NCBI GenBank assembly: GCA_002049455.2
Contig: KV919021.1
Location: forward strand, 50,138-114,137
Reading direction: 5' to 3'
Source of the DNA: Porphyra umbilicalis
Taxonomy: Eukaryota; Rhodophyta; Bangiophyceae; Bangiales; Bangiaceae
Length of the DNA: 64,000 bases
Below the pieces are notes generated by a model that was not told the DNA's origin, made no database searches, and saw only the letters and a program-made list of their open reading frames with translations. The translations under genes were made by a program, and so were the position numbers. Every line of letters starts with the position of its first letter. The stretch's first letter is position 1. Positions 3,382 to 21,872 of this stretch are shown piece after piece.

Positions 3382-3417
3382 TATGGCACTTCTCCCAAAA
3401 ATGACCCCACCTCTGTG
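3382..3417. repeat. Left 36-bp inverted repeat of the candidate giant element
   Basis: Starts TATGGCACTTCTCCCAAAAA and ends CCCCACCTCTGTG. It matches the reverse complement of 27055-27090 at 35 of 36 positions. A subterminal AAACGTTTGGAAACGTT lies just inside, near 3429. Confidence 0.85.
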
Positions 3418-4143
3418 CAGGCTGTGGAGGGGGACAAACGTTTGGAAACGTTCTGTAAGGCAGGGAGGGGCCAATAGGAGGCGGAGGTTCTGTGCCCCGA
3501 TAGAAAACTCGAGCCCCAGCGACCTTGTCGCGCGATTGACTCATACTGCCCGCAGCCATGCACGGAAGCGCCTCCTCTGCCACAGGTCCGCAATCTACGG
3601 CAGGACGCCGTGTTGGAGGCCAGTGGCAGGAGATCGTGTCCGATGTGTGTCGTCGTCGTCGTCGCTGCTGTCCCGCTGGACCGTGGTCCCCGCGCCTCTC
3701 TCGCGCTCCCCTCCTCCCCCTCCCGCCGTGCCGCCCGGCAGGCTCCCGTTGTGGCGTGTCTTTTTGCTCAAGGTGGCCGGCGCTCGTGGCTGTCCAGTCG
3801 CTCCACGACGCGCGGCGAGTGCGTCAAGCCACGCTGTTCCAACGGCGGGCTTCCTTTTCCCCCGGCGGTGGCGCGACGACTCCCTTTGCTGTTCCACCGG
3901 CTTTGCGCCTGCGGCGGCGCTCCGCCGGCAGCGGCGGGTGGCCGTGGTCGTGCTCCTCCACCACCGGCGGCGGTCTGAGGCTGTGGCCGTACCGGTCGGC
4001 ATTCGACTTTGACCGGCGGTGGCGGGCGACTGCGGTCGCGCTCCCCCACCGGCGCCCGTGAGCGGCTGTGACTCTACTGGCTGGCTGGCGTCGCATGTTT
4101 TAGGACGGGACGACGGAGTCTTCTGTTGCTCCTTGCTCCTGTC

Positions 4144-6138
4144 ATGGTTTGCCTGTTGTGTGGGTTTGACCTCGGGAAAGACGCTGACGGCAACAACATC
4201 AAGGGCAACCACTCGCAGCGCACGTGCACAATGCGCTCCATGCCGTGCATGTACCAGCTGTCGCCGACTAGCAAGTTCTTCAAACCGGGGGGCACCGTGT
4301 CGTGCCTGGACAAGGGTTGCGTACACGAGCTGACGTGTCCCAGGTGCCGAGCTGTTGGACATCTGCCGCACACGCTGCGTATTACTGACGAGCTGTACGC
4401 CCGGAACAACGCAGGAGACCCCATCCGCGTCAAGGAGGCGGGTTTCGTGGAGCGTGCGTCGGACTACATGTGCAGGACGCTGGATGACCACCACGCTGCA
4501 GAACTCAAGGCTGACGTCGTTGGCAAGGCCTATCGGCACCACGCGGAGAAGAATCGGCTGGCCGGCACCGCGGCCGCCATTGCCGGAAATCTCTACCAGT
4601 CCGGGCTACACGTGTCGTCATCTGCTACAGCCAACCTCATGGAGGCGAGCGGCACGGCTGCTGCATCATTGGCACCTGCCAACCGCGGCCAATTCGACCG
4701 GGCGTCGACGGCGTTGCAGAACCGCTCGAACACTGCGGTCGAAGCGTCGCTGCTCGCTGCAGGTGGAACCGTTGGGCGTGACGCTGTCGCCGCCGGCGGG
4801 GCTCTGGCGGCGGCCGCCGCCGGTCGCGCTGCGGCTGGTGGCGCTGTGGGTGTCGGTCGTGCCGACGGCGCCGCAGCCGCAGCCGCTCCGGGTGGTATGC
4901 CGCCCTCCTCGCTGGTTTCTGGTGGAACCATCCGGCGTGGCACAGCCCCACCTGCTGGTCGGGCCGTTCGTGGTCGTCGGGGCGGGCGCGGTGGCTCGAG
5001 CTCAACGGACGGGGCGGCGCATGTGCTCGGGGCGACCGCAGCTGCCGCTGCCGCGGGTGCCGCTTCAGCCGCTTCAGCTGTCGCCGCCGCCATTGCTGGT
5101 GTCGCTGGAGCTGCCCCCTCCGCCGTTGGTGGGGGCTCATCACCCGGCGCCACTGGTCGTGGTGGTACCAACGCGCGTGGGCGCGGCCGAGGCCGCGGCC
5201 GCGGTGGCCGGGGATCCGCGCGTGGTGCAGCTACAGCCGGGTCGTCCTCCTCTCGTGGTGGCGGCTCCGCAGGTGGAGAAAACGTCTTCCCGTCTGTGGT
5301 GGACCTCATGCGACAACAGCAGACGCGGAGTGCAGCTGAAGCGGACCGGCACGCGCAGTCTCTCATGGAGATGACTACGTCCGGTTCGGGGTCGACGCGT
5401 TGGACCGGCAGCCCGGGTCGTGGCGGTGGAGCAGGCGCAGCGGCGGCCGGCGGTGTACCAGGAACGGCATCTGCGCCTGCGAAGCATCTCATGTGGCCTC
5501 CCGGGCGTCGGGATCAGTTCCTGGCTCACCATGTGTTTGAGAGCGCGTACGTAAGCCAGCTCTCGGCGCGGGAGCTCGCCCTAGTTGCCCTGGAGCAGGA
5601 TGTTGGTAGCGGTCCGCAAGCGCTCTACCCGGAGCTGGAGTCGCAGTTGATTTCCGCGGCAGAGGGGAACTTCCTCTTTGGCGCGTCGATAACCTGCGGT
5701 GCAGTGTCGGCGGCAGAGTTCGCCGAGCGCCTGTGCTCCACACGCGTCAATGTTGACAACTCGATTCTCCTGGTGATGCTGGCCCAGTGGATGGAGACCT
5801 TTGTACGGGACCAGCGCCGCATCTCTGCCGCCGCCGCTGCTGGGTCAGCAGCTGTAGAGGGCACCGGTCTGTGGGAGGAGGACGTCGACGATGAGCAGTC
5901 GAACATAGCGCAGCTGGAGCGCTTAGGCGGCTGCGGCACGGATCGTGGTGCAGGTCGTGGGTCGGGAGGTGATTCAAGGCGGGGGGCGGGGCGTGGTGCG
6001 GGGGGTGGCGCTGTCGCGGAGCGCCACTCTATGGGCAGAGGTGCGGGTCATGCGGCGGCGCGGAGGGTGGTCGTGAGCGACAGCGACGGAGAGGATGACG
6101 ACGGTGACGAAGATGATGGGGAGGGGGACGACTTTTAG
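4144..6138 (+). CDS. Unknown 664-aa protein: N-terminal Cys/His zinc domain, Ala/Gly and RG-rich middle, acidic tail
   Basis: I do not recognise the family. The start is the first ATG in frame and opens directly into the zinc domain. Residues 1-80 hold C-x2-C, then H-S-Q-R-T-C, C, C-x4-C-x-H and C-x2-C-x3-G-H, a plausible multi-zinc module also seen in the ORF at complement 21873-22223. An Ala/Gly-rich segment follows, then RG/RGRG repeats typical of RNA- or chromatin-binding proteins. A more complex helical region (from about residue 455, around MWPPGRRDQFLAHHVFESAY) has ordinary composition and may be a folded domain. The last 25 residues are almost all Asp/Glu with SDSDGEDD. It lies 430 bp upstream of the methyltransferase on the same strand, so a chromatin-related role is possible, but this is inferred from position and composition only. 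Confidence 0.7.
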   Translation: MVCLLCGFDLGKDADGNNIKGNHSQRTCTMRSMPCMYQLSPTSKFFKPGGTVSCLDKGCVHELTCPRCRAVGHLPHTLRITDELYARNNAGDPIRVKEAGFVERASDYMCRTLDDHHAAELKADVVGKAYRHHAEKNRLAGTAAAIAGNLYQSGLHVSSSATANLMEASGTAAASLAPANRGQFDRASTALQNRSNTAVEASLLAAGGTVGRDAVAAGGALAAAAAGRAAAGGAVGVGRADGAAAAAAPGGMPPSSLVSGGTIRRGTAPPAGRAVRGRRGGRGGSSSTDGAAHVLGATAAAAAAGAASAASAVAAAIAGVAGAAPSAVGGGSSPGATGRGGTNARGRGRGRGRGGRGSARGAATAGSSSSRGGGSAGGENVFPSVVDLMRQQQTRSAAEADRHAQSLMEMTTSGSGSTRWTGSPGRGGGAGAAAAGGVPGTASAPAKHLMWPPGRRDQFLAHHVFESAYVSQLSARELALVALEQDVGSGPQALYPELESQLISAAEGNFLFGASITCGAVSAAEFAERLCSTRVNVDNSILLVMLAQWMETFVRDQRRISAAAAAGSAAVEGTGLWEEDVDDEQSNIAQLERLGGCGTDRGAGRGSGGDSRRGAGRGAGGGAVAERHSMGRGAGHAAARRVVVSDSDGEDDDGDEDDGEGDDF

Positions 6139-6565
6139 CAGCAGTGCACCCCGCGATACCATGAGCTGTTCCATACACATTGTGCGACTTGGTGTCTCCC
6201 CTCTTTCTGTCCCGCGAGCGCATGAAAATAGACCGCGGCGGTGACCTGGTTGTGCAGAAACAGTTGCAGCTGCAAAAATCGGGAATGCGTTCCCGTTTTT
6301 TAATTTTATGTTTTTCTCAGTGGGCCCGATCAGGATCTGATCTTGGCCGTGCAAGGACCGGCTTTTCCGAGGATCACGCAGATTCTTGGCGGTGCTTCCG
6401 CACCGTCAGCCGTCGCTGTGTTTGTGTGTGTTTCCGTCGCGGCTATAACGTCGCAGGTGTGGCTGTGGCGCAGCAGGGGCTGGTAGGTGGGTAGGACCTG
6501 GTGCGGCCGCCGTTACCTTTGCGTCCTCGCGTGCTCGTGATGCTATTTCTGTGGTTCTGCCGGTC

Positions 6566-9500
6566 ATGACGCCCCCGAGGCGGGCGCGGGGGATGGTGGG
6601 GCTTGAAGATGACTTTGTCCGGGAGTGGTTCGCGGCGGCCAGCTCCTCGGGGGACTCGGGGGACGACGCTGGCGACGACGCTGGCGAGTGTATGGGGGAG
6701 GGCTCGCAGCTGCTACCAACAGTCACTCGTGTATTCCACAGAGCAATGGAAGATGCGAAACAGCGGCGGAGTGCTGCTGTGCATGTTGCAGTGGTGGCCA
6801 ACCGAGCCGCTGTGAACCGGCAACGGCATGTGGCCGCGACCTTAATTGGAACCTGTGGCGTTGAACTGCCACCTGTGGAAGCGCTTGGTGCTGTCATCCG
6901 TCTCGGAGCGAGCGGGGACATCGGCGGCGGCTGGGGACGTGGAGCCGGTGGAGTTGGTTTGGGAGTAGGTGCCAGTAGCAGCGGTTGTGTAGGCCGCAGC
7001 GCCGGGGATGGTGTTGGCGTTGGTGTTGTGCACGCTGGCTCCGCTGGAGGGGCGGGCGGCGGGACGCCCGGCAGGAGCGACGAGGACGGTGGCTTCGACG
7101 ACGGGAGCAGCGAATACAGCTGGTGCAGCGACGACGGCGGGATTGACAACGGCGGAGGACACGGCAGGAGGGGCAGCAGCAGCAGCGAAGAAGACGGTTA
7201 CGTCGGCACCACAAGCGGGAGCGACTCCAGTTGGCGTCTCGACCACGGTCGGAAGGGCGGCGGCAGCAGTAGCAGCGGGAGTGGGAGTTTCTGTCGTGAC
7301 CATGGCAGCCGCCGCAGCTGTCGGCGCATCAGCAGTGTACGAGGCCGGAGCACGGCGGTGCAGCGCGCCTCCACCGGCCAGAAGGACGCGGCAGGTGCGG
7401 CTGCTGCCGGTCACGGCAGTGTGCTTCGAGGGCGGCGTTTTGACCGTGGCCCACCGCGCAAGGTGCTTCGTGCGGGTGATGCTTCTGGTGGGACCGGATC
7501 TCTCCCGGCTACTGTGGCGAGAGGGCGGGTTTGGGCTGCCGCTCATGCGGCAGCTCCTCCCTTTGTCCCCCTGCGCGCGTGCACGCCTCCTCCGACAATG
7601 ACGGCGTATGCACCGTTGCGTCGCTGCTTTCGTCGTGTCGAGCCGCACAAGGACGTGCGCTTTGTGCCGTACTTGGGAGATGCTGCGGTGCCGCGTGCTC
7701 TCTCGCGCTCAATTGTGCTAAAGAATGGGTGGCAGCTGGTGGACAGCGACGGCAGCGACGCGTCCGAGTCGGACGACGACAACCGCCCCAAGGACTACTA
7801 CTCCATGGGCGCGCGTACCCGGCGCGCCGCGGAACGGCGGGCGGTGGGGGCCGTCATCAAGGAGTTTGGTTCGGGACCGTCGGTGGTGCAGGCCCTAGCT
7901 ATGAATCTGCAGCGGAGCGAGGCGGCGGTGCGGCGTCTACTGGGGCTTGTGCAGCGCCGCATGCGTGACGTGGACGCGGCTCGACGCGGTCGTCGTGCCG
8001 CTGCCGCACGGTCCGCTGCGCTGGAGGAGCTTACGGGGGGGCAGCGCCTGGCAACGATCATGGTGGGAGGCGACGTTGGTGCAGCAGCTCGTTCTCCGCC
8101 GGCTGGATGGCAGGAGGCCTGGGATGGCCTAGCGGTGCCGGCTGCTGCATTTGCTGCCGGTCTAGAGGCGGGCCGTGACGTCGCCGCAGCAGGACTTCCT
8201 GCTCGCAGTCGAGCGTGGCTGGTGGCAGAGAAGGTGTCAGCTGCTGTGGAGCTTGCGCCCGCCGCGTCTCGTATCGGTGATGTAGCGGCCGTCAGAGAAT
8301 ATCTGCAGAGTGCCTGCGACCCAGCAGACGACGGGCGCACGTCCCGTGTGGGCTCCAACTCTGCATCTAGATCGTCGCCGTCAAGTGTTCGTGCTACTTC
8401 ATCCGGTGGGGGTGCCGCGGCGCATGCAGAGACACCCACGTCCGCTAATGGGGCTGTAGTGCTCGACTGCTCTATCTTGGGCCGGGACACGTTCTCCAGG
8501 CTGCTGTGCCGGCTTTGCCTCCGCTATGCCTGTCGAGCGCATGGGGCTCGACAAGGGCTGGAGCTTCACGCCCCACCGTTGAGTGCACCACGGCACCTAC
8601 CGGTCGACCGCGACCGGATTCGTACTCACGTGGCAGCTGGTGAGCGTTTGCTCGCGCCCGACGTACTGGGCACCGTCCGTCGTCTATTCATCCCCGGTGC
8701 AGGACCTGCAGCGGCCGCGGCCGCGGCGGCGCTCGGTGACGATACGAGCAGCGGGTCAAGTGCTGCTGCTGCACGCAACCGTCGCGCCGGTGTGCAGCAC
8801 GAAGCGCTCTCGGTTGCCGGCGGCACTTGTGTCGATTGTCGTCACGACGTGCGTGCTCATCCCTCCGTTTTCAAGTGTGGTCTTGGAGCGCCAGCGGAAA
8901 GCCAGTGGACGGCGGAACAAGTTGCACTGTTACGTGCGGCAGCGGAGCTGGTCGGCAGACATGACACGTGCCGTCTCGCGTGCTTCGTTCCAGACAGGAC
9001 GTGCCGCGGGGTTGCGCTGTACCTCGACTTGTTTGGGTGGCCGCCGGCAGCTGCCCCTGTCGAAGGGGCCGTCGCGGAAGAGGCGGAGGGGGAAAAGGCG
9101 CCTCGATGTACCCTGGCTCCTGCCGCAGAGAGCGGGACATCTGCTCATGTCGGTGTTGTTTTATCACCCGGCGACGCGGTCATGAGCAGCTTGGAGGATG
9201 CAGCGGCCCCCGACAAGGTTGCGGACTACCGGCCGTGCATGCACAGCGGACCATGTGTGGACGACCGCTGCAGCTGTGTGCGAAACGCGCTTCCCTGCAA
9301 GAAGTATTGCGGCTGCTCGGGCACACGCTGGATTGCCGGTGGGGCGGGGTGCCCGCGAGGCGCAACGTCAGCGCTCTCGGGCGCTGCAGGAGCGAGCGAG
9401 ACGGCGGCTGGTTCTTCCCTGTGCCGGCAGCGCACGTGGTGCACTTGTCGCCCCCCCGCGAGCTGCAGCACCGACGATTGCCCTTGCTTCAGGGTGGACC

Positions 9501-10126
9501 GAGAGTGTGACCCGGACGCTTGTTTGTCCTGTGGGGCACACTGGCACCCGCTCTCTGGTGTCGACGGCACCATCCTGCAGAGTGGACGGCGGGGCGGTGG
9601 ACGAACGGGACGTGGTTTACACGGTGCGGCCACCGTGGAACCTGCTCCGCGGGACGGCGTCGGTCTCGTGCAGTCTGGACTGTCAGGCGGTGGCACCTCT
9701 GTGGGCACCCGACGCTGCCGTAACGTGCAACTGCAGGTGGGGCTTCGACCGAGACTGCTACTTGGTCCGTCTGCGGCGCACGGGCTGGGTGTCCTTGCGG
9801 GTGAGGAGGTCGCGGAAGGTGCTTTCGTCGGCGAGTACACCGGGGAGGTGCTGTCGTTGACGGAGGCGCGGATCCGTGGAAGGACGTATGACGCGGCCGA
9901 CGTGAGCTTCCTCTTCCGGACGACCAAGACTGTGGTCCTAGACGCCATGTACTGTGGCAATCGCACCAAGTTCATCAACCACAGCGCTGCGTCTCCGAAC
10001 TTGGAAGTGAAGCTACTAAGCGTTTGCGGCGACATTCGAGTGGCCTTTTTTGGTACGAGTGCGCTGCGTCCAGGGGAGGAGCTATTTTTCCATTATGGGT
10101 ACACTGTCAGCGGGTGGCGTGCATGA
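6566..10126 (+). CDS. Enhancer-of-zeste-type histone H3K27 methyltransferase (PRC2 catalytic subunit), CXC + SET
   Basis: The 1186-aa protein ends in a complete E(z) catalytic unit. A cysteine-rich CXC/pre-SET region lies at about 890-1020, with clusters such as CVDDRCSCV, CKKYCGC, CSTDDCPC and RECDPDACLSCG. The SET domain lies at about 1056-1186, with HGLGV (cofactor loop), FVGEYTGE, SFLFRT, KFINHS and ELFFHYGY. The segment GRDTFSRLLCRLCLRYAC corresponds to the pre-CXC SANT/MCSS Cys region, and VPYLGD matches the conserved piece near the E(z) middle. By family knowledge it transfers methyl groups from AdoMet to histone H3 Lys27 in the nucleus, in complex with SUZ12 and ESC/EED. Oddities: the conserved Asp of the FFDYxY motif is His here, although both tyrosines remain. 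The N-terminal 870 residues carry long Gly/Ser/Ala insertions. The first ATG in frame was chosen. The reading frame has no intron, although animal and plant homologues have many. Confidence 0.93.
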   Translation: MTPPRRARGMVGLEDDFVREWFAAASSSGDSGDDAGDDAGECMGEGSQLLPTVTRVFHRAMEDAKQRRSAAVHVAVVANRAAVNRQRHVAATLIGTCGVELPPVEALGAVIRLGASGDIGGGWGRGAGGVGLGVGASSSGCVGRSAGDGVGVGVVHAGSAGGAGGGTPGRSDEDGGFDDGSSEYSWCSDDGGIDNGGGHGRRGSSSSEEDGYVGTTSGSDSSWRLDHGRKGGGSSSSGSGSFCRDHGSRRSCRRISSVRGRSTAVQRASTGQKDAAGAAAAGHGSVLRGRRFDRGPPRKVLRAGDASGGTGSLPATVARGRVWAAAHAAAPPFVPLRACTPPPTMTAYAPLRRCFRRVEPHKDVRFVPYLGDAAVPRALSRSIVLKNGWQLVDSDGSDASESDDDNRPKDYYSMGARTRRAAERRAVGAVIKEFGSGPSVVQALAMNLQRSEAAVRRLLGLVQRRMRDVDAARRGRRAAAARSAALEELTGGQRLATIMVGGDVGAAARSPPAGWQEAWDGLAVPAAAFAAGLEAGRDVAAAGLPARSRAWLVAEKVSAAVELAPAASRIGDVAAVREYLQSACDPADDGRTSRVGSNSASRSSPSSVRATSSGGGAAAHAETPTSANGAVVLDCSILGRDTFSRLLCRLCLRYACRAHGARQGLELHAPPLSAPRHLPVDRDRIRTHVAAGERLLAPDVLGTVRRLFIPGAGPAAAAAAAALGDDTSSGSSAAAARNRRAGVQHEALSVAGGTCVDCRHDVRAHPSVFKCGLGAPAESQWTAEQVALLRAAAELVGRHDTCRLACFVPDRTCRGVALYLDLFGWPPAAAPVEGAVAEEAEGEKAPRCTLAPAAESGTSAHVGVVLSPGDAVMSSLEDAAAPDKVADYRPCMHSGPCVDDRCSCVRNALPCKKYCGCSGTRWIAGGAGCPRGATSALSGAAGASETAAGSSLCRQRTWCTCRPPASCSTDDCPCFRVDRECDPDACLSCGAHWHPLSGVDGTILQSGRRGGGRTGRGLHGAATVEPAPRDGVGLVQSGLSGGGTSVGTRRCRNVQLQVGLRPRLLLGPSAAHGLGVLAGEEVAEGAFVGEYTGEVLSLTEARIRGRTYDAADVSFLFRTTKTVVLDAMYCGNRTKFINHSAASPNLEVKLLSVCGDIRVAFFGTSALRPGEELFFHYGYTVSGWRA

Positions 10127-10838
10127 GTTTTATTTTTTTCCTTTCCTGTGTCCTGCTGTATCATTTCCTTGCCCGTAGTATGAGCACCGGTGCTCACAGA
10201 GGAAAGCGGGTGAATCTACGTTGTGCCGCCCATCTTGTTCTTCTCAGTCGTGTGGGCCAATCTCCTCGGCGTCTCTCAGCCATTCCGCAACGCTGGTACA
10301 TTTGCGATCGGCACAGAAAACCTCGCGTTTCTCCGTGTGTGTTTATTGCTCACTTCCGCATGTACTTGATGTCTGTACTTGTCACATTCAAATATTGTAT
10401 TTTTGACCTGATCGTGTGCAGGTCCAATGATACGGCAGCCCGTGTCAGGACTTTTGACCTCGCTGCTGACCCAGTTTTTGTCAGTTGCTGCATTGGCGCG
10501 CTGCTCGCGCATCGTGCAGGTGTTGGACGTGCCTCAGGCCACGTTGCCTGGGTTGCGTAGCCACGCACACCAGCTGGCGCTGCGGCGCCGCTGTCGCCGT
10601 CGCGCTGTTGTCGGACGCGCGGCGACGCAGCCCGCGCCAACCACACGCGCCATCCACCTCGGGTTCTGAAGCGCCTCTCGCGCCGTCTCTCCCTGCCGCC
10701 GATTACCCACCCTCTCCCCCCCGCTGCTCTTGTGCGCGGGCGGCAACAGCTGCCAGAGGGTGCCGGCGCGTTTGCCTCTCCTCCCCCCGCGCGTCCCCCT
10801 GGTGCTGTCCCCACCCCCGCCCGCCTGACATTGTGACC
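10127..10838. other. Intergenic DNA between E(z)-like and PEX11-like ORFs
   Basis: After the methyltransferase TGA there is AT-richer DNA with T-runs (10129-10140) and no ORF with recognisable similarity. It probably holds the 3' UTR of the methyltransferase and the promoter of the next gene. Confidence 0.4.
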
Positions 10839-11575
10839 ATGGCGGCGCCCCTGGACGACACGGTGCTCGCGACCAGCCCCCTCTCCCTCCCCGCCATGGC
10901 TGGCGACCCGCCGACGCGCGACGCGCTGCTGCGGCTCGCGCACTACGTCACCGCCCTGATGCGCCTGTCGACCGCTGCCGCGGCCGCCCGCCGCGCCGGC
11001 GGCGGCGGCAGCAGCGCGTCCCCCCCCCCCCCCCCATCGTCCCTCGAGGCGGCGCTCGGCACGACGCGGCGGCTGGTGCGGCTGGCGACCCTCCCCACCC
11101 TCTTCACGCCACCGCCGCGGTCGCGGCCGGGGTGGATTTGGTGGCGGGCCTCCGCGCGACGGCGGCGCCGCCGGCAGCGGCCGACGGGTGAGGGTGGGCA
11201 GGGGGGGGCGCCAAGCCCACCCCCCGCCCCCGCAGGTTGGCGTGCCTCGCGGCGCTGCTGCGCGCCGTGGCGGCGGTCGCCGCCGCCGCCGTGGCCATCC
11301 GCGAAGCGTCGGCGACGGAGCGGCCCTGGCGCGAGCGGTGGGGGGCGGGCGCCGCCGCCGACGCGAGCGACGACGCGGGCGTGCGCACGTGGGTCGCCCA
11401 CAAGCGGGTCTACCCGTGGGTGGTGGCCGTCAAGTACGCGGGCCAGTTCAGAGCAGGTCGTTTAAAGGACGTCGTATGGCGGCCGCTGCAGCGCCTCCGC
11501 TGCAGCAGCAACCCGTTGGCGCCATCCCGACCAGGTTGCGCCAGAAAGACGTCCACTGGCGGCTCCGCACCATGA
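10839..11575 (+). CDS. PEX11-like peroxisome-proliferation protein, apparently frameshifted
   Basis: The N-terminal pattern TRDALLRLAHYVTALMRL, followed by SLEAALGTTRRLVRLATLP, resembles the N-terminal amphipathic region of PEX11 (RD-x-L-x-R-x-x-QY, then R-K-x-x-R-L). The similarity continues in another frame (HATAAVAAGVDLVAGL) from about 11103, so a 1-nt shift is needed near 11100. A short intron then fits at 11188-11235 (GTGAGG...CCCCGCAG, 48 nt) and rejoins LACLAALLRAVAAVAAAAVAIREAS. PEX11 proteins bind and elongate peroxisomal membranes. Either the assembly has an indel in this extremely GC-rich stretch (a C-run also sits at 11020-11035) or the gene is broken. The family call rests on pattern resemblance only; the low-complexity composition makes chance similarity a real possibility. 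Confidence 0.4.
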
Positions 11576-11776
11576 CTCCTGTGACGACGCTGTGTTCAGG
11601 CGACAGTGAACGCGGCCTGTTGCTGGTTGTGCTCTGCGGGTGCAGTACCTGCCATTCTCCATGCAAAAGGCGTCCCATCTACGAGCCGTCGGGTAGCCAT
11701 AAAAAATCACACTAGAAATCAGTGGTCGTCATTTCTACTGCCCCCCCTGGCAGGCAAGGCTTGACGGAGACATGAC

Positions 11777-14301
11777 CTATCGCTGCCGCAACACGTCCCA
11801 AACACTCTGGTCATTCGCAACATCTGCCGCTGCGCCGGTGAGGCCAGCAGCAGCAACAGTCACGGCCTCCACAGGATGTAGTCCCGACTGTGTCGCTCGA
11901 GCACCTGTCAGGACGCCAACAGCTTGCGCCGCCGTTCCGGCGTCGACGAGCCCTTGCTGCACCAAAATGCGTACATGAGCAACCAATTGAGGCAGCAGGC
12001 CAGCACGTGTCAGCGCTGTGGCACGAGCAGCAACAAAGTTGGTGAACAAATCCGCAGTCCCGCGGTCGCCCCAAGGTGGTGCGGCTTCGACAAATCCGGT
12101 CCACATGCCCATAAACAGCACGTCCGCCGGTGGCAGTGGTAGAGAAGTCATGCGAGCAGCGTCCATGGCAGTCAACCAGCTTTCGTCCATGTCGTCCTCC
12201 GAGTCGGCCGACAAGTCAGGTGCAGGCAGGTGCGTCAGCCGCATCCGCCTGAGACTGTTGGTGTGGTAGTAGTGCCGTCGAGGCGGGGTCTTCGTCCGGC
12301 GACTCGGTGCACAGGTTCCGGCCGCACGTGCCGGCAAGCCCCCCGCACGGGCTGGGGCACAGGCAGAGGGAAAATCTGGCCTGCTTCTGGACGCCGCCGC
12401 AGCGATAGGATGTGGCACCAGTGGAGTCGCAAGTGAGGAGACTGGTCGTCGCTCCATGTTCAGCGCCAAAGAACTGCTGTCGGCAGCATGCAGTTGCTCA
12501 GCACAAATGGGCAGGCGGTCACAAAACAACAGGCCACGATACAACAAGCGCGACGGACCGGGGATGTTAGTACAGCATTGGCGGCAAGATGCGCTCTTGC
12601 AGCGGCCAGCGTGCCGTTGCAGTGGCAGAGATGCGGGACGTCCCCAGGCATCCGCCGCTCCCGCATGCTCGGAGGGCAGTAGAGCGGCCTACAGTCCAAC
12701 GTACAGGTCGTCCAGAAGGCCATCTCGTTCGACAGCACCACTCGCAGCGGCCTCAACAGGAACATATGGCACTGTAGTAGAGAACAAAGACAGCCGAAAT
12801 GCCAGCCAGCGGCGACGGGCGGCACGTCGGTGCACCAGTCAAAGCCGCACAGGACAAAGTCAGGAACCTGCGCTTGCCACGTTAAGAAAGGAAGAGTGAG
12901 CGATGCTCTGAAGAGCACGAATCCACCACCCACCCGCCCAAATAGTAGTCCTCTCCCACCGTCGTCACTGTTCACCAACATACCTCCAGCCCACAGCGCG
13001 TACGCGGGAACGCGCCGCCCGACGCAAAGAACCTCGTCAATAGTTGACGAGTCCGAGTCGTTCCCGACGTCGCGCTCGGTGCTCGGCCGCACATCCACAT
13101 GTGAAGCTCGCGGCAACCACTTGACGAGCGCGATGTAGTGGTCAACGTCGGCCTCCACAACAGCGGGGAGACGAACAGCTGCAGAGGACCTTGCGACGGC
13201 AGGCGATGAGGTCGCCCGAACAGCTCGGGCACGGGAAAAGGTAATCGCAACGCCACTGTGACCCGTGTTCGAGTGGACGACCAAAGCCGCAAACGTGCGG
13301 CAATGGACATGGCAAAGAGGACACCTTGCGTCGCGGCGGGTGCTCCTGGATGTGGCGTTCAAGGAGCCAGTGGAGGCCTCGGGTGTGATGTAGTCGATGC
13401 GCAGTGGCCGCGACTGCCGCCACATCGCGGCCGCAGTTGTACCAGGCGCGCCAGGACGGACAGCGGGATGTGCACCGTGCCCCAGACGACGCGTTGTCGG
13501 CGCCGTCACCCGGATACTAATTCTTGGCTCTTGCTCTGTAGCCGCGTCCGCTGCCATCTGCTCAGCCGCGGCGGAGGCCTTGGCTGCCGCATCCGCAGCG
13601 TCGAGTGCTGCTGAAACATCTGCGTTCGGCATGCCCAAGAATATGGTGTACGTCCGCAGGTCGTCCAGCGGCGACGTACCACCAACCCATGCGAGGCGAA
13701 CACGCCAACCACCAGCACAAGTGTCGGCTGACAAGAAGCGCCCGTTCCCGTCCCCCACAGCTGCCCAGTGCCCCGACGCGTGCAGGATGATGTCCCCAGC
13801 AGCCGATGCTATGGCGTCTCCGTCGCAGGAGCGCGGCACGACACGAATCAGCAGTCGTCCTCCACGCCCTGCAGCCGTGGCAATGTCGAGCGGGGTGTTG
13901 TCTTGCACAATGGACTGCTCAAGCATGGCTGCAACACCGGGGCGCACGTCGAGGAACAGCGGCTGATGTGGACCAGCGACAACACAGCTGATCAGCGTCT
14001 GGTCAGCACCAGATGGCGAAGGCGCCTCGGAAACAAGGGCTACGAAGGCCGTGCGGGGGTCTCCAGAAGAGACTGGAACAGGAGCCGTCCCACACGAATT
14101 GGAGCGAGCCGCGCTGCGACCAACAACGCTGCGTGGCCAGCCGGCGAGCACAACGGTCAGAGCAAGGGGGAGAGCAGGTACACCTGCTGGTAGCGCTGCT
14201 GTGGGTGGCGTCGCCCGGTGGTGGCAGCGACCGAAGGGGGTGGAAGCCCGGGCGGCATATGGCAGCAGGGGCGGGGCCGGGGAGCATGTGTGACGGCTCA
14301 T
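11777..14301 (-). CDS. SUZ12-like Polycomb protein (C2H2 zinc finger + VEFS box), intron-containing
   Basis: Two overlapping minus-strand frames join through introns. The first (ATG at 14301, the first ATG in that frame) encodes a C2H2 finger at 13252-13323 (CPLCHVHC...H...H) whose spacing and following aromatic stretch match the SUZ12 finger. The second frame carries a VEFS box at about 12277-11900: YYHTNSL, then an acidic stretch SADSEDDMDESWL, LFMGMWTGFV, LFTNFVAARATAL and HVRILVQQGL, in the same order as SUZ12/EMF2/VRN2. One in-frame intron is likely (GTGGGT ... CTTAAC ... GCGCAG, about 66 nt, near 12933-12868). One or two more must remove the overlap around 12460-12770 (donor GTACGT near 12703, acceptor GACAG near 12482); exact junctions are not resolved. 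By family knowledge SUZ12 scaffolds PRC2 and its VEFS box activates the E(z) SET domain. It is convergent with the methyltransferase gene. Confidence 0.85.
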
Positions 14302-14944
14302 GACGACAGTCAGGCGGGGTCTCCCCAGCCGGCTGCCACGGCAAGGCAACACCGATGCACGCCGATGTCCACGGCAGGCAGCCAGTGGACTATCTGGGGG
14401 TGCTGACAATGCCACCGCACGCCTGGCGTGATCTGAGGAACGAAGTCCAGCCGACAACGTCCAATTAGTTGCTTACCGGACGGCCCGACTGCGAACGAGC
14501 GCATGGAGAAGAAGCCAGCCAATCACACACGCCCACAGAAGACACTTACACTCGGCTTACATGACGTTGTTACCCTCGATTTACTCGTCGCACTGGGAGA
14601 CAAATTCCATGAAGAAACCCAAGAGAGACAGAGAGGTCAATGCCCTGACCGTTTTTTTTTGGAGCCTTCAGAACACCACGTCCATGCTTTCGAGTCATAA
14701 AAAATTCCGGCTGAGAAGGGAAACAAAGTAGGTACCGCATTGCTGTGGTTCGTCGTGACGTCGCCTGGTGGAAGACGGCCAGAAGCAACGGATGCGAGTA
14801 CGGGAACACCGCTGCACAAGGAACAACACAAGAAGCCCGTGTCACAGCACCTTCAGCCGCGCCAGAAGCATTCGGTACAGCAGCACGAGCACGGAAGCAC
14901 CAGCCGCAAAATCTGACCATAAGATTGCGGAGGAACACAGGCGG

Positions 14945-16050
14945 CCGGTGCCCGAGCACGAGCACGTGCAACCGCCCATGAAGCAGCGGATGCACGACCA
15001 CGAGCACGGCAGCAACTGCCGCAAAAACCACCCCAAACAAAGGCAGAGAAACACCCGCAGCCGGTGCCCGAGCACGAGCACGTGCAACCGCCCATGAAGC
15101 AGCGGATGCACGAGCACGAGCACGGCAGCAACAGCCGCAAAAACCACCCCAAACAAAGGCAGAGAAACACCCGCAGCCGGTGCCCGAGCACGAGCACGTG
15201 CAACCGCCCATGAAGCAGCGGATGCACGAGCACGAGCACGGCAGCAACAGCCGCAAAAACCACCCCAAACAAAGGCAGAGAAACACCCGCAGCCGGTGCC
15301 CGAGCACGAGCACGTGCAACCGCCCATGAAGCAGCGGATGCACGAGCACGAGCACGGCAGCAACAGCCGCAAAAACCACCCCAAACAAAGGCAGAGAAAC
15401 ACCCGCAGCCGGTGCCCGAGCACGAGCACGTGCAACCGCCCATGAAGCAGCAGATACACGAGCACGAGCACGGCAGCAACAGCCGCAAAAACCACCCCAA
15501 ACAAAGGCAGAGAAGCACCCGCAGCCGGTGCCCGAGCACGAGCACGTGCAACCGCCCATGAAGCAGCGGATGCACGACCACGAGCACGGCAGCAACAGCC
15601 GCAAAAACCACCCCAAACAAAGGCAGAGAAACACCCGCAGCCGGTGCCCGAGCACGAGCACGTGCAACCGCCCATGAAGCAGCAGATACACGAGCACGAG
15701 CACGGCAGCAACAGCCGCAAAAACCACCCCAAACAAAAGCAGAGAAGCACCCGCAGCCGGTGCCCGAGCACGAGCACGTGCAACTGCCCATGAAGCAGCG
15801 GATGCACGACCACGAGCACGGCAGCAACAGCCGCAAAAACCACCCCAAACAAAGGCAGAGAAACACCCGCAGCCGGTGCCCGAGCACGAGCACGTGCAAC
15901 CGCCCATGAAGCAGCAGATACGCGAGCACGAGCACGGCAGCGACAGCCGCAAAAACCACCCCAAACAAAGGCAGAGAAGCACCCGCAGCCGGTGCCCGAG
16001 CACGAACAACCGGTGCCCCAGCACGAGCGACCGGTGCCAGAGCAGGAGCA
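14945..16050. repeat. 116-bp minisatellite, nine full copies plus a degenerate end
   Basis: Units begin CCGGTGCCCGAGCACGAGCA at 14945 and then at 15061, 15177, 15293, 15409, 15525, 15641, 15757, 15873 and 15989, exactly 116 bp apart. Copies are nearly identical, and a few variants (GATGCACGACC versus GATACACGAGC) alternate, suggesting higher-order units. The last copy decays into about 24-bp units of GGTGCC-AGCACGA type. On the minus strand all three frames stay open through the array. It lies just downstream of the zinc-finger gene at 16249-17754, possibly in its 3' UTR. Confidence 0.95.
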
Positions 16051-16248
16051 CCTGCAGCCGCGCATGAAGCAGCGGATACATGTGGACGAACACGGGAGCG
16101 CCAGCCGTGGAGAACAACACGACGCACAAACAAAAGAAAAGACCCCGAGCACAAAAGAAACAGCGAGAAACAACCAGGAATAACTGCGAAGCCCATCGTC
16201 AACAGCGCCAGACAAGCGACGGACACATGCGCCGGCCACAGCAAGAAG

Positions 16249-17754
16249 TCAACGGGAGCGGGCTGGCCGCTTCCCCTTCCCTGCGTCACGTCGACCCTCC
16301 CACCCCTCACCGTTCCCATCTCGAGCCGGCTCCCTACCACCAGGCGCGCCTCCCCCCTCGCTCTGCCCCTCCTCGTCTTTACCAGCCGGCGTGCTGGCCG
16401 CGCACACCACCGCATGCCGCTCAAAAGCGATCGTGACACGGTAGCCGCGGCTGCTGGCCGGCACTGCAGCTGCTGACGGCCTGCCATTGTCCTCCCGGGT
16501 GACGCCGCCACGTCCACCTTGAGTACCACGTGACGGCCCGCCACCGCTCCCGCCGTAGCCATCTGCGGCCCTCACAGCGTCGTTCCAGCTGTTGCCGACG
16601 CTGCCGTGGTAAGAACCACGCGACGGCCCCCCACTGCCACCGCCGTAGCCACTTGCGGGGTGGCGCCCCGCGTCTTCCCAATTGCTGCCGCCACGTCCGT
16701 CAACAACGCGATCAGCCGGTGCGCCACCGCTTCTGCCGTAGGCGCTCGGTCGGTGCTCTTCTTCGTCCCACCTGCTTCCTCCACGTGGACGCGGAGAACC
16801 ACCGGACGGTTCGCCACCACCGCCGCCGTAGGCACTAGGAGAAGTCGCATCGTCCTGCCAGCTGCCTCCCGCATGACGAGCACCGCTGGACGGCCCGCCA
16901 CCGCCGCCGCCGTAACCACTGCCGGCGTGGCAGTCGTCCTCCCCGCCGCTTCGCCCGTGACCGCCACCGCCGGACGGCCCACCACCGACGCCTCCGTAGC
17001 CGCTACGGACTTTGCCGTCGTCGTCGCACCACCTGCTGCCGCCACGGGGGTGGGCCGCACCGCCCGGCCTCCCGCAGGCGCCTGTTGAAAGGCGGCGCCC
17101 GGTCTGCAGGTGGCCACCCCAGCTCCGGTTGCCTCGACTATGCCCAGCTTCACCGGACGGCCCGCGGCCGTTGCCGACTGCGGCACGGCCCCCGTTGGTC
17201 GAGCCGCCACCAGTCGTACGGCGCGCCAGTCGGGCTTGGAGCTCCTCGTCGGGCTCTCCGGGACGCCGACCCGCCTGCACCGCTCCTTCAATGGCCGCTG
17301 CAAAACGACTGACGTCCTGGCGCTGCTCGTGCGCCACTACACGAGCGGCACGCAGCCGCGGTGCCACTTGGTCAATGGCGTCGAACTGCCGCCGCTGGAA
17401 GTGGTGCCCTAGATTCTTCATATGGGTGGAGCCCTCGACGTGCGACAGCAGCATGAGCGGCGTGCCGCACTTAGTGTTGCACAGCGGGCAGACCCAGCGG
17501 CCGTCGGCGCCGCTAGCGGCAGGCGGAGGTCCCCCAGCAAGCACAGCGCAACGCTTGAGGTGCGGCCGGCCGGCCAGGTGTTGCTCCCAGTTCTTGTTGC
17601 CAGAAACGTCCATGGAGCACCGATGGCACGTGTACACGCCCTTCTGGTCGGGACCCGACCACCACAGCTCCACGGGCTCCGAGGGGGGACAGGGAGAGCG
17701 GCCGGGCCCCGGGGGTGGCGGTGGCGGCGGCGGTGGTGGGGCAGGTGCCGCCAT
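16249..17754 (-). CDS. U1/matrin-type zinc-finger protein with six Gly-rich repeats
   Basis: A 501-aa protein whose start is the ATG at 17754, opening MAAPAPPPPP. Two fingers with C-x2-C-x12-H-x5-H spacing lie in the first third: CHRCSMDVSGNKNWEQHLAG and CPLCNTKCGTPLMLLSHVEG. This spacing defines U1-C/matrin/dsRNA-binding fingers, which usually bind double-stranded RNA or splicing factors. The C-terminal half is about six imperfect 25-27-residue units with the core SGYGGGGGGPS, then a basic end. An RNA- or RNP-binding role is inferred. It runs in the same direction as the SUZ12-like gene, 1.9 kb upstream of it. A longer in-frame ORF reaching 17970 exists, but its extra N-terminus is low complexity and starts away from the Pro-rich leader. 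Confidence 0.75.
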   Translation of the reverse strand: MAAPAPPPPPPPPPPGPGRSPCPPSEPVELWWSGPDQKGVYTCHRCSMDVSGNKNWEQHLAGRPHLKRCAVLAGGPPPAASGADGRWVCPLCNTKCGTPLMLLSHVEGSTHMKNLGHHFQRRQFDAIDQVAPRLRAARVVAHEQRQDVSRFAAAIEGAVQAGRRPGEPDEELQARLARRTTGGGSTNGGRAAVGNGRGPSGEAGHSRGNRSWGGHLQTGRRLSTGACGRPGGAAHPRGGSRWCDDDGKVRSGYGGVGGGPSGGGGHGRSGGEDDCHAGSGYGGGGGGPSSGARHAGGSWQDDATSPSAYGGGGGEPSGGSPRPRGGSRWDEEEHRPSAYGRSGGAPADRVVDGRGGSNWEDAGRHPASGYGGGSGGPSRGSYHGSVGNSWNDAVRAADGYGGSGGGPSRGTQGGRGGVTREDNGRPSAAAVPASSRGYRVTIAFERHAVVCAASTPAGKDEEGQSEGGGAPGGREPARDGNGEGWEGRRDAGKGKRPARSR

Positions 17755-19811
17755 GGCGACGGAGAACGGGGACGCCCACAGCGAAGACGGAGGCGAGAAG
17801 GCACAAGGAGCAACCACGACGACTGGTAGGCGATTGGTCTGCGTGGCGACACCTGTCCCCAACGCCGGCGACAGCACGCGACGACAGCACGGAGAGCATT
17901 CACCCGCGTCGTGCAGGGGAGTGGGGAAGTGGGGATGAGGGAAAGGGGGGATGGGGGACAATAGCCACAAGGGCTCGAGCAGCTGCGACCGTCACTGACG
18001 GCAGCACAGTAGCGACTGCGCGACCGCAGCAGAACGAGGCTCTGCGCACACCGCTCCAGCTGGCACCTGCAGGTTGCGGGGCGACGAGGACGTCGGGCGA
18101 CGAGAACGGGGAGTGCTGGAACGGGCGATAACAGCTGCTCCTTGTCGTGGCGCCATCACAGACACGAATCAACGGAGCAAGAGCCGGAACGTCCATGTCT
18201 TGGCGGCATCGATCGACCTTCGTACTCGACAAGTACAATTACATGAAATATCTTCATGCAATATCACCGGCAGGCGAGGAAGTGATCCTGATGCGCTGAT
18301 GTCAGCCTCTGATCTGCGGATCGGACTGCGATTCTTCCATTTCTTTGAAGAAGACGCACGGCACTTGTTCACACCTGCCGCACGTGGCCGCCGTGTCCAC
18401 AACACCTCTGCATCCGAACACTGCTGAATGGATTCTGTGCTAAAGATGACCAGCGCACCCTATGCACTCACGACTCGGCAGCTGTTCGGATGCCCGCCAA
18501 GCCCTTTGGACTGTGCTCCGTTCCGCCGGCAACGGCTGCATCCGGGAGCGGTAGAGGGCATTCTCACAGAGCAGCACTGAAGACGGGCGTCTTTCCTGCC
18601 ACCGCAAAGACGCTGCCGACATGGTGACCGCCAGAGCCCCCCGGCCTAATAGACCATCCACCTGCGAAGCAGCATACCCCTTGTGTTTTTCCCCGTGCTG
18701 CACCTCCACCGTGACAGGTGCAGAACACGATGCGAAAGCATGCCGCCCACAACACGCAGACGACGGTCCAAGCACTTTGACGAACTACACATGCATGTCC
18801 TTACTATTTATTTTCGAATTAGACATGTATTTCTTCACATGGTCTCGAATTGTTCTCGATCGACAGATGAATGCACCGGTTAGTCGCCCACCATCCATTC
18901 GATCGGTGCAAGACGACCGCTGCCTGCATGTCACGGCGTGAAGCACAACGTCGCAATGACCACGCTGGTCACCTCGTCTTCCGCACAGGCAGCGCACGAG
19001 CATGGCAATTGGCGATCCCTGCCTCTACTGAACCGACGGATGCATCTGGACGGCCTCTGCCATTCAGTCAAAGCCGTCACGTACACATCGAAGTGTAACA
19101 ATGCCGTCACGTCCTCTTTTTAATTCACTGTGGTGCGGGCAATCGCTGCAAAACGAGTGCAGGCTTCCATCACCAATGATCGCCAACAGCGCAACTGCAG
19201 CCCAGCACACCGTGTTCACAGTAATTTCACGCCCAAGTCGAATCATTCCTGATCATGTAATTTTCTGTTCCTGCTTCATTCCAACGGCGGCGGACTTGTT
19301 CGAGACTGGTACGACTTCGTCAATGCACGCCGCCGAAACCACGGGCATACCGCTGGTCATCGTGCTTTTCCCATCGATTCGGTCGGGCACATCATCGCTG
19401 CGGTCGTACGAGGACAATTTGCAGGGGGGCTACGTTGATCTCGGCTCCGAATGAGGCACGCCCGGGGACGAACCACGTCCACACACACGGCCCTTGGCGC
19501 AAGCGCGGGTTCTCATTGGTGCATATCGAGATCCCCATTGTTCGACTACTGACCGGCCGACTGACGCTGTCACCGTCGACGTCACCGTCACCCTCACCGC
19601 CGCCGTCGTCGTCCCCGCGCAGAACGTCCCCGCCGTCCCCACCATCGTCACCACCTCCGTTGTCCCTTCCCCAGCCGTCGGGCCGCGCCCGCGTTGGTCT
19701 CCTTGCCTGCTGAGTGACTGCCACCCGCGACGACGACCTTCTGCTTCGGTCGCGCCGCCCGCCCCCATTGTCGTCGCCCGGGCCGTCGTTGCTCACTTGA
19801 GTACATTGGAG
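17755..19811. other. Intergenic DNA, no gene recognised
   Basis: The first 250 bases are probably the 5' leader and promoter of the zinc-finger gene. The rest has lower GC than its neighbours and only short ORFs without family resemblance. Confidence 0.4.
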
Positions 19812-20339
19812 CATCCATTCATGATCTCCTTTCCACGATGGACCTGGGGCCGCCATGGCCAGAACAGTGGGCATCATGAGCAGTCGTGCACCTGCCTGAG
19901 TCAGTTGCTGACGACACCGCTGTGACCCGATGGATGCATCGCTGCTGTTCCTGTGTGCCTGTCGATGGGTGTTTTCTGCTCTTCTCTTCGCTTTGATCCT
20001 CGAATTTCCGTGATGCAGGACGTCGGAGGTCCTGGGCGGCAGCGGCAGATGATGCACTCTGAGTACGTGCGGCAGCATCCATTCATGATCTCCTTTCCAC
20101 GATGGACCTGGGGCCGCCATGGCTAGAACAGTGGGCATCATGAGCAGTCGTGCACCTGCCTGAGTCAGTTGCTGACGACACCGCTGTGACCCGATGGATG
20201 CATCGCTGCTGTTCCTGTGTGCCTGTCGATGGGTGTTTTCTGCTCCTCTCTTTGCTTTGATCCTCGAATTTCCGTGATGCAGGACGTCGGAGGTCCTGGG
20301 CGGCAACGGCAGATGATGCACGCTGAGTACGTGCGGCAT
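19812..20339. repeat. 264-bp tandem duplication
   Basis: Two nearly identical 264-bp units start CATCCATTCATGATCTCC at 19812 and 20076. 264 is a multiple of three. A 315-codon minus-strand ORF (19392-20339, with ATG) reads both copies as 88-residue repeats containing TSDVLHHGNSRIKAK. Whether that ORF is expressed cannot be judged; it matches no family I know, so I annotate the repeat rather than a gene. Confidence 0.9.
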
Positions 20340-21138
20340 GCCGCACGTATGTTGACGGACGTCGGTGAGCGCGAAGCTGCTGTGACCGTCGTGCTCGGGG
20401 TCAGCCGTACATCCTTCCGTCGCTGACGCCTAGCTCAACCTGCTCACGCCGGAAAACCGAGCGACGACGTCGTGTTCATGTCGAGCAAGTACCTCAATAT
20501 GTCGTTCACCGAATGGAAGAGGGATTTGCGGAGGACCCAACGCCGCGCGCAATGGCGCGCCCTTTTGGTCGGACAGCTGTTGGACGGCAGCAGCACGTCC
20601 TAGGCCCTCTTAGTGACCGACGAGGTAGTCGTCTGGGTGTGGAGCGCTTTAGGAACTGTAGGGCTGCACACAGTGGGGAGACGGTTGTGTGGACGGTTGT
20701 GTGGACTTGCGCACCGTCTTTTCTTTCTCTCGTTACCATCTTAAAAAAAGCCATGCTCCGGCTTCCCCAGAAGAAGACCGTATATGAAGTACTTCCTTCC
20801 GTCGAGCATGCACGGCGACACGCCCAACGCACGACCTATGCTCGTCGAGCGGTGGGCGACGGGCAACAGCGGGGCAGTGACGCTGGTCAGCTTGTACTGC
20901 TCGGTGTCAGGCCAGCCGACCAGCAACAGTGGATTCCGTTATGCAACAGACGCGGTCGAGGTGCTGTCAGGCTGACGGTGCTCGACGGCGGAAACGGGGC
21001 GTCGCTGCTCGCGAAACGGGGCGTCGCTGCTCGTCGACAGCTTCTGCTTGACGTGCGGCAGCGGTGCATTGCTGCTCGTGCGCTGGTAATGAAAATACGT
21101 GCCGGCTGTGCTCGACGTCTACGAGCGGGAATGTACTT
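20340..21138. other. Gene-free DNA between two tandem-repeat blocks
   Basis: Only unrecognised short ORFs are present. Degenerate CTGCTCGTC-type words at the right end merge into the 119-bp repeat. Confidence 0.35.
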
Positions 21139-21377
21139 CTCGTCGGCGGCTGCTCCTCCACGTGCTGCGGCAGGGTTGACTCGACGTGAGGCACCAGGGT
21201 GCAGCCAGTCGGCTGCTCCTGCTCGCTCCTGCGACGTCGACGAGCGGGAGTGTGCTGCTCGTCGGCGGCTGCTCCTCCACGCGCTGCGGCAGGGTTGACT
21301 CGACGTGAGGCACCAGGGTGCAGCCAGTCGGCTGCTCCTGCTCAACGCGTGGCACCGGCGTGCTTCCCATCTGCTGC
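21139..21377. repeat. 119-bp tandem repeat, two copies
   Basis: Units start CTCGTCGGCGGCTGCTCCTC at 21139 and 21258 and include GGGTTGACTCGACGTGAGGC and a CAGCCAGTCGGCTGCTCCTG block. Further degenerate GCTGCT-rich copies extend on both sides (about 20990-21680). Confidence 0.8.
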
Positions 21378-21872
21378 AGGTGGTCAATGTCGAGCTACTG
21401 GGATGGGGCGCTCTTCAGCTGGTGGTCCTCTAATTCCACAGCGCGGGCGTGCTTCCTGTCGGCTGCGGAGGCCGGATACCCTGCGCCGGCGCGAGTGCTG
21501 TTCATGGGCTACTGCTGCTCTGCTTCAGGCATTGCGGAGGTTCTTCTGCTGGTCTATTGCCCGACGTCCAGGGGAGTGCTTGCCGGCTGCTGGAGCTGCC
21601 GCTCACCGACGGCGGGGACGCGCTGCCATTCGGCTGCTGCTCCCGATTGAGTACCCGGTCTGGACAACTCGGCTGCTGGTGCTCGACGACAAGCAGCCGC
21701 GGGGGTGCTACGCGTGACGCGGCTCCTTCGCCAGCCCCGTGCTACGCCTCCTCACTCGGCTGTCGTGGTAGTTTTTCTTCCTTGCTTGCTGGGCGGCTCC
21801 AGCACGAAAAGCGCGGTTCGAACAGAGGGAACAAAGTGCAAGAAGCGGCCGTTTATTCGTGTTGTCGCCAAG

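Follow-up and report, generated by a model that had tools for sequence, protein, structure and literature searches.

Predicted E(z)-like and SUZ12-like Polycomb genes as cargo of a giant TA-flanked DNA transposon in a red alga

Results

Comparison of copies within the genome shows that the predicted E(z)-like and SUZ12-like genes of the window (the 64,000-nucleotide stretch of Porphyra umbilicalis DNA analysed here, part of contig C261) are cargo of a giant DNA transposon, flanked by TA and bounded by terminal inverted repeats (TIRs). We consider it fairly probable (roughly 60%) that such giant transposons carry the catalytic lobe of PRC2 and would borrow EED from the host, most likely for self-silencing, activity and target being predicted from sequence. 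The first-pass annotation, which had read the two genes as a partial PRC2 module, is partly supported; the main point that it missed is that the pair travels on a mobile DNA transposon.

The element has sharp edges and the ends of an IS630/Tc1/mariner transposon

The boundaries and the transposase are as follows.
3382..27090, no strand: whole element, IS630/Tc1/mariner-type DNA transposon carrying PRC2 genes, 23,709 bp, from BLAST against the C71 and C317 copies
3382..3417, + strand: left TIR, 36 bp, begins with TA
27055..27090, - strand: right TIR, 36 bp, 35 of 36 positions identical to the left TIR
23236..24348, - strand: transposase, DDE_3 (2.5e-9) plus a weak HTH; D180, D279 and E313, the second and third separated by 33 residues

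Near-identical copies of the element on contigs C261, C71 and C317 sit between different flanks. By BLAST, the C71 copy matches the window at 99.3% over 12.2 kb, up to the end of contig C71, and the C317 copy at about 99%. The left edge at 3382 is common to both comparisons and the right edge against C317 falls at 27091, one base past the TIR. With edges set by BLAST and no motif used, TA is found at both ends in C261 and C317 and at the left end in C71; 19 further TA ends come from a list whose search pattern already included TA, and one end on C2 reads GATGG. The TA target duplication of IS630/Tc1/mariner elements is therefore present as read from occupied ends rather than from comparison with an empty site, and the TIRs are also of the kind found in this group. 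The DDE_3 match of the transposase scores 37.6 bits (Pfam cut-off 28.6); the protein had no significant match among PDB sequences. Within the 64-kb window Rfam gave no match, and no tRNA genes were found.

Three further features lie inside the element.
4126..6138, + strand: ORF with a Cys-rich part followed by an RG/A-rich part, unmatched in Pfam and of uncertain coding status
14882..16005, no strand: tandem array of a 116-bp unit, 9.7 copies
16249..17970, - strand: ORF with a zf-met zinc finger (2.9e-5), with 4 nonsense differences in other copies

The coding status of the zf-met ORF is uncertain because of these nonsense differences, and the long ORFs running across the tandem array (14570-16562, - strand) are probably not genes. 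A large size (16.8-43.8 kb between TIRs in the large elements) and several ORFs of no assigned identity would also suit an endogenous virus or a Maverick-like element. However, the Pfam scan, which covered 15 of the 55 element ORFs of at least 150 aa, gave no match to a capsid, polymerase B or viral integrase, and searching viral contigs with proteins P0002 and P0003, an approach limited to close relatives, gave no match; with TA ends and a DDE_3 transposase in place, we regard a viral origin as very improbable.

The E(z)-like gene

6566..10126, + strand: predicted E(z)-like histone methyltransferase, CXC at 9440-9538, SET at 9782-10099

The ORF starts at 6551 or 6566. The CXC and SET domains that the first-pass annotation had read here were recovered by Pfam: SET matched at 8e-14 and, ahead of it, preSET_CXC (PF18264) at 2.5e-7 (31.5 bits, cut-off 23.3). 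The best solved-structure match of the protein was EZH2 (1.2e-33). A profile of four rows (the window, C71, C117 and C228 copies) gave about 1e-46 for EZH1/2 and 4e-21 for EHMT2, the class next in rank, which places the SET domain in the EZH class. Before CXC and SET lie segments colinear with EZH2 that we take to be MCSS- and SANT2-like, but these are weak (the MCSS match reaches 0.0099 in one paralogue); PF21358 had no match in the genome and none in control genomes either. The N-terminus is long and of low complexity. SET and CXC were the only Pfam matches in this ORF, with no EED-binding helix among them, and the predicted structure (mean pLDDT 31) is too poor to use.

In the SET domain, the NHS motif and the C-terminal Tyr motif do not vary across the four aligned rows, two of which are 98% identical. 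The residues aligned to what we take to be Y641 and A687 in EZH2 numbering are not Y and A. Some copies are broken: C278 has NHR at the SET motif and an internal stop, C143 has GKDTFF at the SET end and a stop, and in C233 the frame is broken within SET.

The SUZ12-like gene

11777..12547, - strand: SUZ12-like gene, VEFS-box ORF, VEFS at 11921-12301
12460..14457, - strand: SUZ12-like gene, upstream ORF with a C2H2 zinc finger at 13234-13344, in a frame different from that of the VEFS ORF

Profile matches bear out the reading that E(z)-like and SUZ12-like genes stand side by side. The VEFS box (PF09733), which had been placed at 11900-12277, was found overlapping that interval with 3.3e-10 (40.4 bits, cut-off 23). 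The annotation had joined it with a zinc finger in one protein at 11777-14301; here the VEFS part stands, the finger stays below threshold (Zn_SUZ12 1e-4, 22.4 bits, Pfam cut-off 28) and the two do not form one open frame, so that an intron or a frame change is needed between about 13100 and 12400. A paralogue on C273, P0003, is a single ORF that aligns at 40% identity with the finger part (13114-14118, - strand) and at 46% with the VEFS part (11816-12382, - strand), which lends support to a SUZ12-type finger. Zn_SUZ12 is itself sub-threshold in P0003 (21.4 bits) and unmatched at 0.05 in P0004. Each of the two ORFs has one nonsense difference in another copy.

Searched singly against the PDB, the VEFS proteins gave no SUZ12 match. 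A SUZ12 profile that included a diverged SUZ12-like protein encoded on C478, separate from the element, matched PDB SUZ12 at 1.4e-6; with the C478 protein left out, the element-only profile had SUZ12 as its only PDB match, at a non-significant 0.16 or worse. The predicted VEFS structure (mean pLDDT 49) is too low to use.

The element lacks a visible EED gene

No EED/ESC gene was found in this element by Pfam in the 15 of 55 ORFs of at least 150 aa, so the PRC2 core seen here is incomplete. A plant EED homologue used as query had no match on C261, and a home-made WD-motif pattern, applied in six frames with no positive control, matched at a single isolated place. Elsewhere in the genome EED-like genes occur on C527 and C20. 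On C278, another element-bearing contig, there is a weak match to WD (1.4e-8) at a distance of 29 kb from a TIR end, and an unread subfamily could therefore differ in EED content. We guess that C76, with a broken SET match and no clade transposase near, holds the host's own E(z).

The PRC2 genes recur with one transposase clade across the genome

The genome holds 26 VEFS and 76 CXC matches, and 22 of the 26 VEFS matches have a CXC match no more than 16 kb away. Transposases were assigned to the clade of the window's transposase at 50% identity or more, a cut set after the table was seen. Among the 111 of 378 transposase candidates that were scored, a clade member lay within 25 kb of 59 of the 76 CXC matches and of none of the other 17, and 28 of the 87 clade transposases had no E(z) match within that distance; less similar transposases were near E(z) in only 1 of 24 cases. 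Random placement, with the genome handled as one line, gave a mean of 3.8 and a maximum of 11 in 1000 trials for the figure of 59. Other scorings covered 150 of 359 candidates (the window's own transposase not among them) and 39 of 7618.

TIR ends were taken from about 100 listed out of 1269, using 68 with at most one mismatch and one C2 end with two. Among the ends listed, 12 of 14 inward-facing pairs enclose E(z) and the transposase, and 10 of these 12 also enclose SUZ12; E(z) places for C2, C135 and C193 and SUZ12 places for C2 and C378 were added from separate searches. At the level of predicted genes, these counts show that the element belongs to a large, diversified family in which one transposase clade is usually accompanied by the E(z)-like gene and, in a subset, also by the SUZ12-like gene, which is present at only about 27 places. 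Related elements with one or both PRC2 genes appear to number in the dozens within this genome.

Segmental or tandem duplication of an immobile host gene pair would also yield many copies on many contigs. It is already contradicted by the sharp edges, which coincide with inverted repeats at the left end in C261, C71 and C317 and at the right end in C261 and C317, with flanks that differ. The transposase inside also speaks against it, as do TIR pairs 3.5 and 4.2 kb long that lack E(z) and SUZ12 genes, and we give it almost no credence. A host PRC2 locus as such is ruled out by copy number, by the edges and by the separate SUZ12-like gene on C478; that the pair might be the sole, syntenic PRC2 genes of the host, a condition raised in the first-pass annotation, is likewise excluded in this genome. 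Its proposal of a partial module inherited together without EED held up, as the genes recur together at many loci. In eukaryotes other than this one, E(z) and SUZ12 are as a rule not linked.

The cargo genes are under purifying selection between subfamilies

Comparisons between subfamilies give low dN/dS values of about 0.2-0.4 overall, with dS near saturation. It is 0.17-0.23 for the E(z) SET domain and 0.14-0.39 for SUZ12-like genes compared between the C466/C59 group and the C273/C184/C233/C174/C346 group, where the stretches from C346 (71 codons), C174 and C233 cover only part of the gene; at 677 codons, the longest pairing gives 0.25. For the window VEFS exon, 4 of 7 pairings were computable and gave 0.20-0.26. 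Recent copies behave otherwise: the C261 and C71 E(z) genes differ at 3 synonymous and 17 nonsynonymous positions, and C228 against C143 gives 0.88 in SET and 0.46 over the whole gene. Purifying selection is thus seen between subfamilies and none is visible among recent copies.

Discussion

In the reading that we prefer, the transposase would move the element by cut-and-paste at TA, and the element's E(z) and SUZ12 proteins would come together as the catalytic lobe of PRC2 and recruit host EED (and p55-type) subunits. The complex may then deposit methylation of the H3K27 type, for which the most likely site is the chromatin of the element itself. This would lower the element's transcription and reduce the harm done to the host (self-silencing, latency), and the element would keep a targeting subunit apart from host SUZ12. 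More tentatively, and at somewhat less than even odds, giant elements of the IS630/Tc1/mariner type may form an old and diversified lineage that keeps an active PRC2 lobe, with its own SUZ12 in a subset, parallel to host PRC2 and regulates its own chromatin across dozens of loci.

The element proteins could instead draw host EED away, or compete for it, and in this way weaken the host's Polycomb repression of transposons. An element in which no EED is seen would depend on the supply in the host, repression of transposons by PRC2 is described for several eukaryotes (PMC10638273), and there is a reported precedent in ALP1/ALP2, domesticated transposases of Arabidopsis, of which ALP1 antagonises PRC2 (PMC4671723, PMC7282668). 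A decoy, however, needs no conserved catalytic SET; the invariant NHS and Tyr in four rows, together with the low dN/dS from one subfamily to another, point to an active enzyme, although some copies are broken, and we hold anti-silencing to be rather unlikely. Less likely again is that the methyltransferase or zinc fingers steer insertions to, or mark, safe repressed chromatin. Chromodomain retrotransposons are a precedent for such targeting and zinc fingers occur in the SUZ12-like protein and the zf-met ORF, but the latter has nonsense differences between copies.

Compared with PRC2, the element offers the colinear MCSS-, SANT2-, CXC- and SET-like segments of E(z)/EZH2 (the first two weak) and the VEFS box and sub-threshold finger of SUZ12; unlike PRC2 genes, these are transposon-borne, in many copies and with no EED seen alongside. 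IS630/Tc1/mariner elements are usually a few kb long. The present family shares with them the DDE_3 transposase with its D-D-E residues, TA ends, short TIRs and MITE-like derivatives, and differs in its size and its chromatin-modifier cargo. The vSET protein of a chlorella virus is a small lone SET protein with H3K27 activity and is not known to have a SUZ12 partner; it resembles our case as a parasite's own H3K27-type methyltransferase (here predicted from sequence), whereas here E(z) and SUZ12 are found together on a transposon.

ALP1 and ALP2 are Harbinger-type transposase derivatives. They are likewise transposon proteins tied to PRC2, which they are reported to join or contact, but as transposase-derived host genes acting on PRC2, whereas here a transposon bears the PRC2 genes (PMC4671723, PMC7282668). 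Retrotransposons of dinoflagellates and charophytes are described as having taken up DNA methyltransferases, with self-methylation suggested (PMC5890265); there too a multi-copy transposon family captured a host silencing enzyme, but those elements are RNA-based and concern DNA methylation, whereas ours is a DNA transposon with two histone methyltransferase subunits (PMC5890265). Enlarged DNA transposons are also reported from the red alga Chondrus crispus, as CACTA (En/Spm) elements of 16-20 kb with another transposase family, and the excerpted text of that report does not mention PRC2 cargo (PMC6431247).

The best-ranked literature matches held no report of transposon-borne PRC2 genes. Transposon silencing has been proposed as the first role of PRC2 (PMC10638273, PMC8788455). 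A chromatin-silencing enzyme known to repress such elements would now be their cargo, and a transposon-borne lobe would invert that proposed origin and make self-silencing, disarming of the host and supply of new Polycomb genes testable. With 76 CXC matches in one genome, counts and trees of E(z) and SUZ12 in such genomes may consist mostly of transposon copies.

The PRC2 gene pair lies within a transposon

The first-pass annotation had placed an E(z)-like and a SUZ12-like PRC2 gene side by side, and ORF and Pfam analysis bore out the positions it gave for the VEFS box and the E(z)-like ORF. The E(z) protein matched EZH2 in PDB (1.2e-33), and a four-row E(z) profile matched EZH1/2 at ~1e-46 (next class, 4e-21). 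The VEFS ORF matched Pfam VEFS at 3.3e-10, and the zinc finger of the SUZ12-like gene scored under the Pfam cut-off. P0003, a single-ORF paralogue from contig C273 with the zinc-finger and VEFS parts in one frame, aligns to both SUZ12-like ORFs of the window.

As judged by sequence comparison, this pair sits in a transposon.

Window features
3382-27090: transposon, 23,709 bp
6566..14301: E(z)-like and SUZ12-like genes
23236-24348, minus strand: transposase

The edges were mapped by BLAST of the window (C261:50138-114137) against three other copies (on contigs C71, C317 and C154). The left edge at 3382 is common to C71 and C317, and in C317 the right edge falls at 27091. C154 has a partial copy, and the C317 copy has two extra internal stretches. 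The edges are 36-bp inverted repeats (TIRs) with one mismatch and TA at the start, the flanking sequence differs between copies, and the TIR core motif was found twice in the window (0.00 expected). An ORF of the element matches DDE_3 (2.5e-9) with weak HTH matches, and the D-D-E residues of the transposase are D180, D279 and E313.

Genome-wide (83.8 Mb in 665 contigs), a 22-base TIR pattern (≤3 mismatches) occurred 634+635 times, compared with 1+1 for a reversed control. Pairing used, of ~100 listed, the 68 ends with at most one mismatch and one C2 end with two. Among these, 14 inward-facing pairs lay within 60 kb; 12 of them, spanning 16.8-43.8 kb, contain a single E(z) locus together with a single clade transposase (≥50% identical to that of the window), and 10 of these 12 also a SUZ12-like match. 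The remaining two (3.5 and 4.2 kb) are without E(z), transposase or SUZ12. The TIR was present at all 23 ends inspected (4 from C261 and C317 by BLAST, 19 from the list of pattern matches, the pattern including TA). Past the TA, the sequences to the left and right of an element are unlike each other, except at C79, where 9/12 positions agree; an additional TIR-like copy occurs in one C135 flank. C261 and C71 are 99.3% identical across 12.2 kb, which points to recent movement, and the element would move by cut-and-paste at TA.

Among ~100 places listed, seven inward pairs of TATGGTGCGTGTCCCAAAAATG-like ends lie 632-635 bp apart and are MITE-like, being related to the TIR (e.g. C1:735369-736000 and C2:589710-590341). 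A palindromic, TA-flanked MITE-like element of ~131 bp with a related TIR (window 27236-27366) lies ~145 bp beyond the right end of the transposon.

E(z), SUZ12 and transposase genes are linked genome-wide

Profile searches of the contigs gave 26 VEFS and 76 CXC matches; a CXC match lay within 16 kb of 22 of the 26, in three recurring arrangements.

Arrangements of VEFS and CXC matches
Opposite strands, 1.1-2.6 kb apart (window type): 9
Same strand, 6.5-12.2 kb apart: 9
Opposite strands, 13.1-15.5 kb apart: 4

As queries, the window E(z) protein gave at least 63 scored matches (identity 33% to 100%), a SUZ12-like protein of the element family 41 in ~27 places, and the window transposase at least 111 scored relatives, 87 of those 111 at ≥50% identity. 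A clade transposase lay within 25 kb of 59 of the 76 CXC matches, against a mean of 3.8 and a maximum of 11 in 1000 random placements, and 59 of the 87 clade transposases had an E(z)/CXC place within 25 kb; among transposases <50% identical, 1 of 24 lay that close to E(z). No E(z) match was found within 25 kb of the other 28 clade transposases, two of which (C431, C509) start at contig base 7. At E(z)+transposase loci on C21, C115, C138, C41, C50 and C179 a SUZ12 match was absent and the E(z)-transposase spacing was alike (5.1-6.0 kb, same strand). These represent subfamilies that have E(z) on its own or with a partner that went unrecognised.

Constraint between subfamilies and probable decay of copies

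Between E(z) subfamilies (C261/C71, C117, C228/C143), dN/dS was 0.17-0.23 in SET, 0.20-0.32 in CXC where computable and 0.26-0.31 over all aligned codons; these values are rough because synonymous sites are near saturation. For the SUZ12-like genes it was 0.25 over 677 codons (C273 and C466), 0.36 (C273 and C184) and 0.14-0.76 in other computable pairs. Recent copies are unconstrained: C261 and C71 E(z) differ by 3 synonymous and 17 nonsynonymous changes, the window E(z) ORF differs from C71, C317 and C154 by 15 and 49, and C228 and C143 gave dN/dS 0.88 in SET and 0.46 overall. This fits individual copies decaying after insertion while active lineages would be constrained. At the sequence level, mobile-element anatomy, linkage and constraint between subfamilies are shown.

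The SET domains of four aligned element rows retain the NHS and terminal Tyr motifs. C278 reads NHR, C143 and C278 carry stops, and the C233 frame is broken in SET. Where EZH2 has Y641 and A687, the aligned residues of the element copies are A/Q/V and I/V; a plant E(z) sequence (an approximate query) also has no Y at the first position, so no product specificity is concluded.

Probable host Polycomb genes and proposed use of the element genes

A diverged VEFS gene on C478 (27% to the element VEFS; Pfam VEFS 7e-12), with no CXC match within 20 kb and not recovered by the element SUZ12-like query, is likely the host SUZ12. A plant EED homologue matched two genes.

EED/ESC-like genes
C527:8898-9863 (1.2e-36)
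C20:216890-218268 (7.5e-36)

C527 had no VEFS or CXC match in genome-wide searches and none of the 111 scored transposase relatives, and the C20 gene lies ~11 kb past the nearest TIR end among those listed. On C278, a weak WD/EED-like match (C278:30931-31164, 1.4e-8) is separated by 24 kb from the E(z) copy of that contig and by 29 kb from its TIR end. No EED was seen in the element by Pfam on 15 of 55 ORFs of ≥150 aa or by the plant EED query against C261. A plant E(z) query ranked element-type copies first, so a host E(z) was not singled out.

PRC2-evolution papers mention transposon silencing by PRC2 (PMC10638273, PMC8788455), the reverse, a transposon carrying PRC2, being unmentioned in the passages seen. 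Top-ranked search results, mostly outside the subscription literature, contained no report of it.

The element E(z) and SUZ12 would form an active PRC2 lobe drawing on host EED. Its likeliest use may be self-silencing, because the SET motifs and the constraint are retained and a mere decoy would need neither. The SET departures of C278, C143 and C233 speak against this. A serious rival is anti-silencing.

Other features of the window

Stretches 27388-28104 and 29650-30230 share 84-88% identity with sequence on C317 and C71 and form another repeat family. Outside the element, ORFs for a Ulp1-type C48 protease (37124-38806, 9e-25) and a PIF1-like helicase (43647-46454, 2e-11) perhaps belong to another mobile element, and a 963-aa Hsp70-type ORF (51963-54854, 2e-88) is perhaps a host gene. 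C665 (185,000 bases) carries phycobilisome-family matches, eight near full-length and two partial, which makes a red alga the probable host; genome size and GC may point to the Porphyra/Pyropia group. Window GC is 56-80% in 2-kb steps.
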